A stretch of 23,976 nucleotides of DNA. Source: a virus. The notes under the pieces are model-generated. The model was not told the DNA's origin, made no database searches, and saw nothing but the letters and a program-made list of their open reading frames with translations. Within the stretch, counting starts at the first letter, position 1. Every line of letters begins with the position of its first letter. Location: positions 1 to 23,976 of IMG/VR virus record IMGVR_UViG_3300023116_000355. One strand, written 5' to 3'. This document shows positions 4,346 to 8,079 of the stretch, one piece after another. The translations under genes and the position numbers were made by a program.

Positions 4346-6031
4346 ATGATAATTAGTAAAATGAATGATGGAATGAGAATATACAAATCTTGGAGAGAAA
4401 ACGGAGAGAAAAAACATGAAATTGTTCCCTTTAGACCTTACTTCTATGTTTTACAAGATGAACCTGAGCGACCTCACTATAAACCTACTAAATATCTTAC
4501 TAGGGATTTTGAGTATCAGCGTGGCGATTGGGTTAATCTTGCGGGACAGCCTTTGAAAAAAGTATTTGTTGAGTCAGCACAAGATATTAGGAATGCTAAA
4601 AATAAGTTTAGGGAAACCTATGAAGCAGATGTTCCTTTTCACTTTCGGTATTGTGTTGATGAGTTAGATGAAATGCCCGAATATAAACTGCGTAAGTGGT
4701 ATTGGGATATGGAATGGGCGCAAGGTGGAGAATATCACGACCAATTGACTACAATTGTTGTGTATGATAATTACGACGAAGAATATATTCAATGGGTGTG
4801 GTGGCCTAAAGATGATACTAAAAAAGATTTGGCTGATGTTATTTTAGAAGGAGATATTTGCCCACCTTCTAACTGTTCTGTGCGTTTTTTCTCATCAGAA
4901 AAAGAAATGATTGAGGATTTTATGAACACCATGATTGTAAAAGACCCTGATATGTTAATTGCTTGGTTCGGTCATTTTGCTGATTTACCAAAGTTATTTG
5001 AACGGGCTTCTGCGGTGGGTCTTGACCCACGCATTATTTCACCAACGGCAACAGTCAAGGGATTTAATTCCATGAAAGAAGGTTTTTCTACGAAATATTC
5101 GGAGAAAGGTTTTTCACCAATTGAACAACCCATTGGTGGGCGAATTACCCTGTCTTTGGACTTAGCATTTGAAAGACAATGGAATGATTCTCAAAGAGGA
5201 ACATTACCTTCTCTTTCTCTTGATTATATCGGTGAAACTGTTCTTGATAAGAAGAAGTTAGTGTCGGAAAAGTTTCCTGACCCTAACGATTTTTACCGAA
5301 GAGCATGGCTTGAAGATACGGAAACTTATCTTAAATATGCTTTAAGAGATGTTGAATTGATGGTTGAAATTGATGAGAAGAACTTTTGTAGTGAAGCAAT
5401 TGTTTCTCTTCAACGATTACTGAAAGCACCATTTGATGCTTGTTTCTATGCTTCTCATATGGGTTCTATTTACTTCATGCGAAATGCTGATTGGAAAGCA
5501 CCAACAGGTAGTAAAGTAGATAAAAGACAAGAATATGAAGGTGCTATGATTTACGACCCACTAAGCGAAGGAACAAATGGTTTGCACCTTAATGTAGCGG
5601 CTTTTGATTTTGCTGGTCTATATCCTTCAATGATGATTGCACGAAACATTTCTTGGGAGACAAAATCTGTTGAGCCAACTGAGTTTGGAGTTAATATTCT
5701 AACTCCAAGAGATTTCAGCGATGTTAAACATGAACAAATGCTATATTACAAAACAGACAAACTCGGCTTGTTGCCGAGAGCCGTTCTTGAGTTGAAGGAA
5801 CTCCGCAACGAATATAAACGACTGATGCGAGAGGCGAGAGAAACGGACAATGGCGAATATGCGAAGTGGTATAACAATCAAATGGCTGTTAAGAGATTAA
5901 TGGCTTCTTTCTATGGTATTGTTGCCTTTCAAGGATTTGGTTGGGCTGATGTTGATTTAGCCGCAAGTATCACGGCCAGCGCAAGAGAAGCAATTAGATT
6001 AGCCGCATTTGCAGCAAAGGAGATGGAGTAA
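4346..6031 (+). CDS. polB: Family B DNA polymerase, N-terminal fragment (exonuclease, motifs A and B)
   Basis: The first 561 residues of the replicative polymerase. Visible in order: the N-terminal domain; proofreading exonuclease Exo I WDME (D121, E123), Exo II WFGHFADLP (D213) and Exo III YALRD (Y331, D335); then polymerase motif A DFAGLYPSMM (catalytic D421) and motif B KRLMASFYG (K516 to G524). Motif B usually reads KxxxNSxYG, so alanine replaces the conserved asparagine. The protein stops at AAKEME, just where an intact polymerase would continue into motif C; that continues in the gene starting at 7186. The TAA stop overlaps the ATG of the HNH gene. A PolB normally spans both parts in one chain of roughly 800-900 residues; here 561 plus 297 residues. 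No intein splice motifs are seen at the break. Confidence 0.95.
   Translation: MIISKMNDGMRIYKSWRENGEKKHEIVPFRPYFYVLQDEPERPHYKPTKYLTRDFEYQRGDWVNLAGQPLKKVFVESAQDIRNAKNKFRETYEADVPFHFRYCVDELDEMPEYKLRKWYWDMEWAQGGEYHDQLTTIVVYDNYDEEYIQWVWWPKDDTKKDLADVILEGDICPPSNCSVRFFSSEKEMIEDFMNTMIVKDPDMLIAWFGHFADLPKLFERASAVGLDPRIISPTATVKGFNSMKEGFSTKYSEKGFSPIEQPIGGRITLSLDLAFERQWNDSQRGTLPSLSLDYIGETVLDKKKLVSEKFPDPNDFYRRAWLEDTETYLKYALRDVELMVEIDEKNFCSEAIVSLQRLLKAPFDACFYASHMGSIYFMRNADWKAPTGSKVDKRQEYEGAMIYDPLSEGTNGLHLNVAAFDFAGLYPSMMIARNISWETKSVEPTEFGVNILTPRDFSDVKHEQMLYYKTDKLGLLPRAVLELKELRNEYKRLMREARETDNGEYAKWYNNQMAVKRLMASFYGIVAFQGFGWADVDLAASITASAREAIRLAAFAAKEME
6016..6027 (+). repeat. Direct repeat copy 1, AAAGGAGATGGA
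   Basis: This 12-base sequence lies at the end of the polymerase N-fragment, 3 bases before the ATG of the HNH gene. The identical 12-mer occurs at 6605-6616 at the other end of the HNH gene, also 3 bases before an ATG, and a 9-base core (GGAGATGGA) recurs at 6699-6707, again 3 bases before an ATG. It contains the Shine-Dalgarno GGAG. Confidence 0.8.
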
Positions 6032-6633
6032 TGGGAAAAAGGTCATTACCAATTAGAAAAACTATTTATACTTATTGGGAAAATAGCCCACTTAAAATAG
6101 TCTTAAATAAACAAGCATTTGATAAAAATAATAATAAATGTATGGCTTGTGGTGTGGAGGCAAATATAGACCGAGCGCACATTGTTTCTAAATTTTATGG
6201 AGGTTCAAATGAGCCATCAAATATTCATTGTTTATGTCAAATTTGTCATAAGTTAAGTGAAAATTTACAAGGACATGATTATTGGTTATGGATTGCCCTA
6301 AAATCAAAATTATTTTCATACGGCACAGACATGACCTATGAATTAGACCATACTTCATCAAAGGATAAGAGTCTTAGACCATATTATATGGAATTTGAAT
6401 ATCCTGAAAAATTAAGGAAATACTCTAAAGAATATACTCAACTTTCTTTACTTGAGGGATGGGGAGGAAGAAGCACTATTTGTTATTTGTATTTAGCAGG
6501 TCTTATGCCGAATTCATATTTAGATATTAATTATCCTTTATTATCGGACATAGAAGAAATTCTAGAATATAATTCAGAGATACATTTTTATATACCTGAA
6601 ATAAAAAGGAGATGGAATTATGAAGGAATGTAA
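6031..6633 (+). CDS. HNH endonuclease (probable free-standing homing endonuclease)
   Basis: A 200-residue protein whose N-terminal third holds a zinc-bound HNH nuclease: CMAC (C37, C40), DRAHI (H50, the general-base position), GGSNEPSNIHCLCQICH (N64, second zinc pair C69/C72, H73). Such enzymes cut DNA at a specific site, and phage versions often lie inside or beside the gene whose intact copy they cut. The C-terminal part (from about residue 85) is unlike any domain I know and could give target recognition. The ATG overlaps the stop of the polymerase N-fragment, and the start is preceded by AAAGGAGATGGA. It sits in the gap of the split polymerase gene, so it probably spread into this locus and is associated with the break (inference). 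A simple restriction-type nuclease is the alternative. Confidence 0.9.
   Translation: MGKRSLPIRKTIYTYWENSPLKIVLNKQAFDKNNNKCMACGVEANIDRAHIVSKFYGGSNEPSNIHCLCQICHKLSENLQGHDYWLWIALKSKLFSYGTDMTYELDHTSSKDKSLRPYYMEFEYPEKLRKYSKEYTQLSLLEGWGGRSTICYLYLAGLMPNSYLDINYPLLSDIEEILEYNSEIHFYIPEIKRRWNYEGM
6605..6616 (+). repeat. Direct repeat copy 2, AAAGGAGATGGA
   Basis: Exact copy of the 12-mer at 6016-6027, here inside the end of the HNH gene and 3 bases before the ATG of the next mini-gene at 6620. A 9-base core is repeated once more at 6699-6707 before the gene at 6711. The repeats bracket the HNH gene. Confidence 0.8.
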
Positions 6634-6721
6634 AAGATGTAAAAGTAGAAAGGCCGTTCACCCAATACACGGATATTGCTGGAATTGTTATAGACAATGG
6701 AGATGGAAAAATGAAAACTAA
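6620..6721 (+). CDS. Mini zinc-ribbon protein, 33 residues
   Basis: A very small gene overlapping the end of the HNH gene, with the ribosome site GGAGATGGA 3 bases upstream of its ATG. The product has two CxxC knuckles: C4-K-R-C7 and C20-W-N-C23, separated by a basic loop, and ends in an Arg/Trp-rich tail. This is enough for one zinc ribbon and hardly anything else. Its last residues (WRWKNEN) and those of the HNH protein (RRWNYEGM) are encoded by related DNA because both carry the next gene's GGAGATGGA. Function unknown; nucleic-acid or protein binding is plausible. It overlaps the next gene by 11 bases. Confidence 0.7.
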   Translation: MKECKRCKSRKAVHPIHGYCWNCYRQWRWKNEN

Positions 6722-6881
6722 ATATGTAACGATTAAAGTATCATATGATACGGAAGAAACTTGGGATATTACTTTACAAGAAGTAAAGGAGTTATTTCAA
6801 ATGATGAATAACTTAAAGCGTCATGCTATCATTATAGAAATTGAACAAGGTGTTAATCGTGATGATGGACAGGACGAATGA
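6711..6881 (+). CDS. Hypothetical protein, 56 residues
   Basis: A small acidic protein beginning MKTKYVTIKVSYDTEETWDITLQEVKELF. The pattern is a beta strand, a loop, an amphipathic helix (LQEVKELFQMMNNL), and a second strand (HAIIIEIEQG), so a mini alpha/beta fold is likely. It begins 3 bases after GGAGATGGA and overlaps both its upstream and downstream neighbours. No family recognised. It is part of the small-gene cluster between the two polymerase fragments. Confidence 0.65.
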   Translation: MKTKYVTIKVSYDTEETWDITLQEVKELFQMMNNLKRHAIIIEIEQGVNRDDGQDE

Positions 6882-6990
6882 ATTATTGGAAGAGTTGCTA
6901 GCCATGATAAATAGAAGCAACAAGATTTTGATGATGGTTAATATAGTAAATATTGCGACTATCATTACACTACTGGTGGTGGTATTATGA
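6865..6990 (+). CDS. Single-span membrane peptide, 41 residues
   Basis: An open frame with ATG at 6862 or 6865 that overlaps the previous gene by 17 bases and the next by 4 (ATGA at 6987-6990). The N-terminal half is charged and helical (DRTNELLEELLAMINRSNK); residues 21-41 are an uninterrupted hydrophobic stretch (ILMMVNIVNIATIITLLVVV) that would span a membrane. The best ribosome site, AGGTG, is somewhat distant, so expression would depend on coupling to the gene before it. Overlap at both ends with its neighbours argues that it is real. Function unknown. Confidence 0.5.
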   Translation: MDRTNELLEELLAMINRSNKILMMVNIVNIATIITLLVVVL

Positions 6991-7181
6991 GAGATGAAGA
7001 ATTTTATTTTGAAGCATTAAAAGAAATTAAGAAAATGAAAGAACATTTAGAAAACGAATTAGAGGATATGGAAATCAAACTTCGTTCTCTTCAATTGGTT
7101 AAGAGGCAGATTATGGAACTCCAAGATGAAGTTGCTAAAATGCAACAACAACCTGTTGGTATGCTTTTTACTCTAAGGTGA
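6987..7181 (+). CDS. Coiled-coil protein, 64 residues
   Basis: A highly charged, almost entirely helical protein (FEALKEIKKMKEHLENELEDMEIKLRSLQLVKRQIMELQDEVAKM) with heptad-like spacing of hydrophobic residues, followed by a short tail. It should form a coiled-coil oligomer. The start overlaps the stop of the membrane peptide, and the gene ends 4 bases before the start of the polymerase C-fragment, with that gene's AAGGTGAT site at the junction. It might bridge or scaffold proteins; tethering the two polymerase pieces is possible but purely speculative. Confidence 0.75.
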   Translation: MRDEEFYFEALKEIKKMKEHLENELEDMEIKLRSLQLVKRQIMELQDEVAKMQQQPVGMLFTLR

Positions 7182-7185
7182 TTAT

Positions 7186-8079
7186 ATGAAAGTAGTATAT
7201 GGACACACAGATTCAATTTATGTGCAAATTGATTCTGTTGAAACTGCTGAATCTGCAATTAAGCAGATTGAGGCAAAAGTGCGAGAGCATTTTCCTAATG
7301 TAATGGAACTGGAAAATCATCCTGTTGTTCTTGAATTTGAGAAATACTATTCTGCTTTGGGTGTTGGAACAACAAAGAACCGCAACGCTGGATTAGTTTC
7401 TTGGGAAGATGGAGTATGGTTAGATAAGCCAAAGTTTAGTATGACTGGTTTTACTGCAAAGCGTGTTAGTGAAACTAAATTAGCAAAAGAAGTGCAAACT
7501 AATACTCTTAAAATGTGGGTTGAACAAAAATCTTATGCAGAAATTACTAAGTATTTACATGAAACCTTTAGCGCAGTAAATAACGGTGAAATTCCTCTTG
7601 CTTCTATTATCAAGAGAAGCCGTCTTAGGAAAAACAGATTTACTGTTCAATGCCCCAATTGTGAAACTAGATACAATTTAAGAGACTGTTCTACTTTACC
7701 GCACAAAGTTTGCGAAAAGTGCTCTACGCCAACAAAACAATTTACTACTCTTGAAGGAAAGAAACCTACTATTGGTTCAGGAATTGCTGGTGTTTTATAC
7801 GCATGGGAAAAGAAAAACACTAATTTTGATGACTCTTATCTCTTCTTAAAAGTAAAGAGGGTAAATGATTTCTATACCCATCCTTTAACTCAAGAAAAGC
7901 GAGAAGTTGAATACTTATCAGGCATAACCTACGAGGATTTTGAAGGTTGTAGTCCCGATTGGGACTTCTATGCTCAACAGGTGGTTAAGAAGGCCGACCC
8001 CGTTTTCAAGGCTATGGGGTGGGATATAGCGTCCATACGGACGGGAAAAATACAAGCAAGCCTTGACGAATGGTGGTGA
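7186..8079 (+). CDS. polB: Family B DNA polymerase, C-terminal fragment (motif C, thumb, PIP-like tail)
   Basis: The second polymerase piece, 297 residues, begins MKVVYGHTDSIYV, which is catalytic motif C. Its usual form is YGDTDS; the first Asp is His here (H7) while the essential second Asp (D9) remains. Next come the thumb-side motifs KPKFSMTGFTAKRV and KEVQTNTL. At residues 156-179 there is a zinc-ribbon-like insert with CPNC, C168 and CEKC. The protein then resumes the usual C-terminal pattern (DWDFYAQQVVKKADPVFKAMGWD) and ends QASLDEWW, matching the clamp-binding PIP box Qxx(I/L/M)xx(aromatic)2. The ATG at 7186 has its own AAGGTGAT ribosome site, so it is an independent gene that must assemble with the fragment ending at 6031. 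The last 90 bases are notably GC-rich compared with the rest. Confidence 0.93.
   Translation: MKVVYGHTDSIYVQIDSVETAESAIKQIEAKVREHFPNVMELENHPVVLEFEKYYSALGVGTTKNRNAGLVSWEDGVWLDKPKFSMTGFTAKRVSETKLAKEVQTNTLKMWVEQKSYAEITKYLHETFSAVNNGEIPLASIIKRSRLRKNRFTVQCPNCETRYNLRDCSTLPHKVCEKCSTPTKQFTTLEGKKPTIGSGIAGVLYAWEKKNTNFDDSYLFLKVKRVNDFYTHPLTQEKREVEYLSGITYEDFEGCSPDWDFYAQQVVKKADPVFKAMGWDIASIRTGKIQASLDEWW

Follow-up and report, generated by a model that had tools for sequence, protein, structure and literature searches.

How an essential viral replicase comes to be encoded by two separate genes, and whether mobile genes lying between its halves caused the break or arrived later, are questions raised by a locus of the 23,976-bp IMG/VR virus record IMGVR_UViG_3300023116_000355 (positions 1–23,976, the whole of which was analysed and is called the window here). 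In this fragment of a magrovirus (order Magrovirales, viruses of Marine Group II archaea), the gene for a family B DNA polymerase (PolB) is divided into an upstream gene, PolB-N, and a downstream gene, PolB-C, with an HNH endonuclease gene and four mini-genes in the gap (Table 1). The original prediction, made from the letters of the window alone, placed the break between AAKEME and MKVVYGHTDS; its coordinates were right, and the fragments, when joined, are about one residue short of intact relatives. Comparison with related sequences makes it highly probable that the PolB of this magrovirus is a two-chain polymerase, which arose when the gene was split once, in an ancient event, between the palm/fingers helix and the strand of motif C.

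The two genes together encode a complete family B polymerase

The Pfam DNA_pol_B profile is shared between the two products, positions 36–193 matching PolB-N (E = 4.6e-18) and positions 222–370 matching PolB-C (E = 4.4e-9), and both halves also have PHROG matches. The exonuclease domain is located in PolB-N by Pfam, and Exo I–III and motifs A, B and C of family B are all present across the two parts. The split falls between motif B and motif C, directly before the latter; in a profile alignment, PolB-C starts at the equivalent of yeast Pol delta residue 758, immediately ahead of motif C. As had been predicted, each half has its own start codon and Shine-Dalgarno-like stretch, AGGGTGA upstream of PolB-N and AAGGTGAT upstream of PolB-C. 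The 3′ tail of PolB-N also serves as a Shine-Dalgarno-like sequence for the gene that follows it.

Motif C reads YGHTDS (YAHTDS in loci L391, L399 and L411), the first Asp being replaced by His, in the split magrovirus PolBs as well as in the intact sister PolBs described below; a conserved His in motif C has been reported for PolB groups B2/G2 (PMC7544198). A Cys4 zinc-ribbon-like insert in the thumb (PolB-C residues 156–179) is nearly invariant among relatives.

The split is ancestral and has an intact sister clade

Scans of IMG/VR yielded 293 loci, representing 186 distinct junctions with both ends readable. The break is at one and the same point in all 186, with no intact gene among them. 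Some of the scan patterns begin at the start Met of PolB-C and so favour split genes; scans seeded with PolB-N are free of that bias, and in these a separate PolB-C lies behind every PolB-N that has enough downstream sequence. Because the split recurs in 186 distinct junctions from 293 loci, it is not due to chance or to assembly error. PolB-C always starts four residues ahead of YGHTD (176/176), and the end of PolB-N is never more than a few residues from AAKEM or KVMEL, lying 15–19 residues past AREA in all but one of the proteins having AREA. The length of the gap ranges from −4 to 1613 bp over the 186 junctions, with a median of 692 bp.

In INPHARED, no match to PolB-N exceeded about 25% identity and PolB-C gave only three weak matches. 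A scan seeded with a halovirus PolB recovered 12 marine contigs in which PolB is a single open reading frame (ORF) of 750–826 aa. These proteins are 41–46% identical to PolB-N and share its clade's unusual motif C, YGHTDS. The intact contigs that were checked are syntenic with the window, ORF 1166 being followed by RadA-like, clamp, nuclease, primase-like and ERCC4-like genes (the RadA-like, primase-like and ERCC4-like names come from position and sequence, with weak or no Pfam matches). From this shared gene order, we conclude that the intact-PolB contigs are sister magroviruses. They were sought and used as an outgroup because haloviruses alone gave a very long branch. In the resulting tree of 91 rows, intact and split PolBs are separated by one change, and the split clade has a support of 99 (Shimodaira–Hasegawa-like approximate likelihood-ratio test, SH-aLRT). 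A very long branch leads to the halovirus root; the two magrovirus clades separate independently of this root.

Alignment of both fragments to intact PolBs, the check that had accompanied the original prediction, could be made with the 12 sisters and places the loss at about one residue. The spacing from AREA to YGHTD is 20 residues in the 12 intact proteins, as against 15–17 residues in PolB-N plus 4 in PolB-C in nearly all split ones. Where the intact proteins read ELG-Y-E-V-I-YGHTDS, the split ones read EL-stop / M-K-V-V-YGHTDS: the Gly of the turn has been lost, and the start Met stands where the Tyr was. On this tree and alignment, the split arose once, in the ancestry of a large virus clade whose sister is an intact, syntenic clade.

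Four loci (L200, L249, L252 and L258) have junctions free of cargo, in which the PolB-N stop and the PolB-C start overlap by four bases, ATGA, and the Shine-Dalgarno-like stretch for PolB-C lies inside the end of PolB-N. This state is found at three places on the tree. Such an overlap is what a small frameshift beside the Gly codon would leave, so that no mobile element would be needed. The first split may have resembled these junctions, with an ATGA stop/start overlap produced by a slight shift of frame in the Gly-Tyr turn ahead of motif C.

Two further observations concern related polymerase genes. A halovirus-like PolB has been split independently elsewhere (L384:4956–8463 and L372:3530–6881; HVTV-2 residues 703 and 718 on either side, after the palm), and its gap contains an HNH-like gene of another kind. 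In L342, PolB stops at this same position, and the next ORF has a zinc finger plus a Vsr-like part. The loci L002 (3804–5432) and L003 (3771–5432) have the same junction and PolB-C, and their PolB-N are 72% and 93% identical to that of the window, respectively, which suggests recombination within PolB-N.

Evidence that both halves are functional

Both halves are under purifying selection, with ratios of nonsynonymous to synonymous substitution rates (dN/dS) of 0.07–0.16 for PolB-N and 0.04–0.17 for PolB-C, and the evolutionary distances of the two correlate (r = 0.86). The exonuclease residues, the motif A Asp, the motif B Lys and the motif C Asp are invariant in 176/176. The split divides the metal-binding Asp pair, the motif A residue lying in PolB-N and the motif C residue in PolB-C. 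Both metal-binding Asp residues are required for polymerisation by PolB enzymes; since they stand on different chains, neither chain should polymerise alone. The models of PolB-N and PolB-C match archaeal and phage PolB structures. The two chains would be made from a single operon and join to form one active enzyme.

When 33 contigs were searched over their whole length, 32 had a single PolB, present as one PolB-N plus one PolB-C or as one intact gene. The long relative contigs contain no separate intact PolB, the kind of second polymerase which, according to the original prediction, would have made the two fragments remnants. The exception among the 33, the contig of L003 (184,733 bp), contains two pairs of PolB-N and PolB-C and perhaps represents two virus genomes joined in assembly.

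The gap holds varied cargo

Cargo is present in 182 of the 186 junctions, and the PolB-N stop codon overlaps or abuts the next start codon in 171. In the window, the HNH gene and the four mini-genes (6620–7181), all found as predicted, overlap their neighbours by a few bases each. The first slot after PolB-N is occupied by 43 gene families, with at least 53 changes on the tree, which marks the gap as a hotspot of insertion. Endonucleases of three kinds fill this slot in 14 junctions: the window-type HNH in 5/186 (one of the five distant), GIY-YIG proteins with MUG113/T5orf172 domains in 5, and a second HNH-like group in 4, the latter assigned by motif only, without confirmation by Pfam. The tree shows 5 changes in endonuclease presence, which lie at its tips. 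The HNH gene of the window matches HNH_5 (8e-6, just under the Pfam cut-off) and many PHROG HNH families.

The loci L002 and L003 represent the empty form of the window junction: their PolB-C is 96% identical to that of the window, they have no HNH gene, and mini-gene 1 directly follows PolB-N. Because these close relatives without HNH are still split, the HNH gene entered an already split gene. The likeness to Aeromonas phage Aeh1, whose nrdA is split by the endonuclease gene mobE, had been put forward in the original prediction; it is not supported, given this point and the rarity of the HNH gene.

Six occupied/empty pairs (L001/L002, L130/L179, L065/L136, L140/L064, L050/L068 and L123/L125) share one anatomy, with a single copy of the PolB-N tail at the empty site and two copies flanking the cassette at the occupied one. 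Several cassettes, HNH and GIY-YIG among them, have a second 12–17-nt copy of the PolB-N 3′ tail. Of 178 loci, 12 have tail repeats of at least 12 nt, where about 0.5 would be expected, and 6 have repeats of at least 14 nt, a length reached in none of 1780 shuffles. In L050 and L065, the cassette's tail copy encodes KAKEME, as in other viruses, and that of the recipient AAKEME, which points to transfer of the cargo along with its tail. The HNH gene of the window has an HNH domain, stands as a gene of its own and occurs sporadically with a matched empty site, as free-standing HNH homing endonucleases do; it is probably one such cassette, a free-standing homing endonuclease aimed at the conserved PolB-N tail.

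After the fission, the junction probably turned into a tolerant landing site. The PolB-N tail resembles a ribosome-binding site (GGAG, GGTGA) and would give such a sequence to any following gene, so that tail-duplicating cassettes inserted there would harm neither half. Evenly balanced, in our judgement, is the broader proposal that the junction is a reusable cassette site, where selfish endonucleases and small cargo insert behind the PolB-N tail, each bringing or making a second tail copy, which would supply both the ribosome-binding sequence of the next gene and a repeat for clean later excision. If this is true, an ancient fission opened a safe harbour within a replicase that the virus needs, and genes there are replaced at a very high rate across ocean viruses.

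Among the small cargo, mini-gene m1 has one copy per genome, always inside this gap, and the intact sisters lack it. In about half of the junctions, m1 and the short hydrophobic and coiled-coil mini-genes (6711–7181 in the window) make up a conserved block that separates the two PolB halves. In L218 (5380–5718), a PemK/MazF-type toxin gene lies inside the polB gap (PF02452, E = 4e-16).

Alternative explanations

A homing endonuclease might itself have broken an intact polB, in the manner of nrdA/mobE, and later have been lost or replaced in most lineages. The three kinds of endonuclease behind PolB-N, the almost universal presence of cargo and the HNH gene in the gap of the unrelated halovirus-like PolB would agree with such a history. 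We nevertheless think it unlikely, since no endonuclease is common to the whole split clade, the window-type HNH is rare in it, endonuclease presence shifts at the tips of the tree, and the cargo-free junctions resemble a plain frameshift. That the halves are decaying remnants in a virus replicated by another polymerase is scarcely credible: motif C lacks its usual first Asp, but the intact sisters have the same His there, dN/dS is about 0.1 for both halves, the catalytic residues do not vary, and the long contigs contain no other PolB.

The residues flanking the gap would join almost perfectly, as expected if the gap were an intron or were bypassed and one full-length PolB were made by splicing, trans-splicing or frameshifting; in the cargo-free junctions, where the frames are offset by one, ribosomal frameshifting is conceivable. 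This explanation is nonetheless very improbable. Rfam gave no credible intron match at gathering or permissive thresholds, the gap ends have no common sequence and the 43 kinds of first gene are unrelated. PolB-N stops at TGA in 134 junctions, TAA in 47 and TAG in 5, the frames of the gap are evenly spread (65/61/60), and a Shine-Dalgarno-like match of at least 4 nt precedes PolB-C in 160/182 cases, versus 48% of shuffles. With this spread of frames, the absence of intein-like extensions and four gapless relatives, the earlier view of the locus as a gene fission, not an intein or a simple frameshift, stands. As to the tail repeats, they may be only convergent ribosome-binding sites, the cargo entering by ordinary illegitimate recombination without any cassette logic, and we give this possibility serious, if somewhat less than even, weight. 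The repeat core AAGGAGATGG is not confined to the gaps (0.047 per kb there versus 0.021 per kb in the rest of these genomes), and a long repeat is missing from most gaps. However, the repeats of 15–17 nt reach upstream of any ribosome-binding core and lie exactly at the cassette borders in the occupied/empty pairs, and those of L050 and L065 match the tails of other viruses instead of the recipient's.

Several points weigh against the preferred history of a cargo-free fission, later tail-duplicating insertions and a two-chain enzyme. The present cargo-free examples may be secondary losses of cargo, and the first split could have been an insertion. Instead of being a product of insertion, the tail repeat could be maintained by selection for translation (both can hold), and the window-type HNH genes of L020, L023 and L028 have no clean tail repeat. 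AlphaFold models of the separate chains are modest, with a mean predicted local distance difference test (pLDDT) score of 62 and 73. In the model of PolB-C by itself, confidence is high for the thumb (about 90 pLDDT) but not for the palm section (residues 2–11 and 38–95); this would be expected if the palm section folds only against PolB-N, though a shallow alignment might account for it as well.

Several narrower candidates were rejected: a self-splicing intron, group I or other (no Rfam match, no common gap content, no gap in four relatives); a split-intein polymerase (no intein halves at the fragment ends, with the PolB-C start fixed in 176/176 and the PolB-N end 15–19 residues after AREA); read-through or in-frame bypass (all three stop codons used, frames evenly spread); and the window HNH as the cause of the split (found in 5/186, with L002, L003 and the cargo-free relatives split without it).

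Genomic context of the locus

The + strand of the window carries genes for an AAA clamp-loader-like protein (AAA/RFC-like), a RadA-like ATPase, a sliding-clamp-like protein, PolB, a PD-(D/E)XK nuclease and further replication proteins, and the tail genes lie on the − strand. This order is kept in long relatives, many of them 87–103 kb. The placement in Magrovirales, which leaves the family rank aside, is made because of the gene order shared by these long relatives together with published magrovirus descriptions (PMC10768690, PMC12999244); the features of the order, a tailed virus of ~90–110 kb with its own replisome genes, were found. A tRNA-Lys (TTT) gene at 2362–2453 overlaps the end of ORF 1166–2383.

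Table 1. Features of the split polB locus in the window.
Feature	Coordinates	Strand	Description
PolB N-terminal chain (PolB-N)	4346..6031	+	561 aa; exonuclease domain, motif A (D421), motif B (K516); ends AAKEME, stop TAA
Tail copy 1 AAAGGAGATGGA	6016..6027	+	end of PolB-N; left border of HNH cassette
HNH endonuclease gene	6031..6633	+	start overlaps PolB-N stop (TAATG); probable free-standing homing endonuclease
Tail copy 2 AAAGGAGATGGA	6605..6616	+	right border of HNH cassette; Shine-Dalgarno-like for mini-gene 1
Mini-gene 1	6620..6721	+	33 aa; two CxxC pairs (zinc-ribbon-like)
Mini-gene 2 (m1)	6711..6881	+	56 aa; found in 89/186 junctions
Mini-gene 3	6862..6990	+	42 aa; hydrophobic C-terminal segment; family in 94 loci
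Mini-gene 4 (m2)	6987..7181	+	64 aa; coiled-coil-like; family in 91 loci
PolB C-terminal chain (PolB-C)	7186..8079	+	297 aa; starts MKVVYGHTDS; motif C, rest of palm, thumb with Cys4 insert

Implications

The magrovirus polB offers a case of fission in an essential enzyme whose direction can be read, with an intact sister clade, a single split, cargo-free overlap forms and many later insertions. The cause of the split can here be separated from the mobile gene inside the gap, which the Aeromonas phage example could not do. A two-chain replicase, cut directly before catalytic motif C, is predicted in very common ocean archaeal viruses and would be a natural model for how split polymerases assemble. 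In virome surveys that use PolB as a marker, both genes should be counted as one enzyme.

Comparison with known systems

Split PolB as a kind is already known, and the magrovirus split itself is already labelled. Whether it had been described in this virus group was a question left by the original prediction, and the answer is partly yes: a figure in the International Committee on Taxonomy of Viruses (ICTV) profile of Aoguangviridae bears the label 'PolB-NTD/CTD' for Aobingvirus yangshanense, Magrovirales (PMC10768690). There, as here, a magrovirus PolB is drawn as two genes, very probably through the same split; in the available part of the profile the figure label stands by itself, the text giving no split point, origin, intact sisters or cassette anatomy. 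The genome of this virus (ON649702) was not among the matches listed in the phage collection. In the literature covered, the label was found only in PMC10768690 and no discussion of the magrovirus split was found; Philosof 2017, 10.1111/1462-2920.16287 and Dassa 2009 lay outside this coverage, and an earlier account is possible. In the literature covered, there appears to be no description of the split's single origin, of the intact sisters, of junctions without cargo or of a reusable site of insertion. T5orf172 and HNH endonucleases are known near phage DNA polymerase genes, in homing endonuclease gene islands (HEG-islands; PMC10448857), and the accessible part of that account, unlike the present case, describes no reused junction within a split polymerase with tail duplication.

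Nanoarchaeum equitans and Methanothermobacter likewise have a natural two-gene PolB, but theirs are cellular genes. The PolB halves of N. equitans bear a split intein. DNA polymerase I of this archaeon is split (NEQ068/528), and that of its relative Nst1 is unsplit (PMC3655853).

Among viruses, nrdA of phage Aeh1 resembles the window in that an endonuclease gene separates two halves of an essential enzyme. Insertion of mobE is taken as the cause of the nrdA split (PMC2988022), whereas the magrovirus HNH arrived after the split. A parallel in the enzyme itself is gene 43 of Aeromonas phages 44RR2.8t and 25, a PolB likewise divided over two genes, 43A and 43B (PMC2988022, citing Petrov 2010). 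According to the part of PMC2988022 available, 43A and 43B co-purify with activity, and the seg endonuclease at the split of phage 25 may have invaded an already split gene. In 44RR, the break lies between motif A and motif B, 43B having both KILINSLYG and YIDTDS, whereas the magrovirus break lies between motifs B and C; judged by break position and lineage, the Aeromonas and magrovirus splits are independent events.

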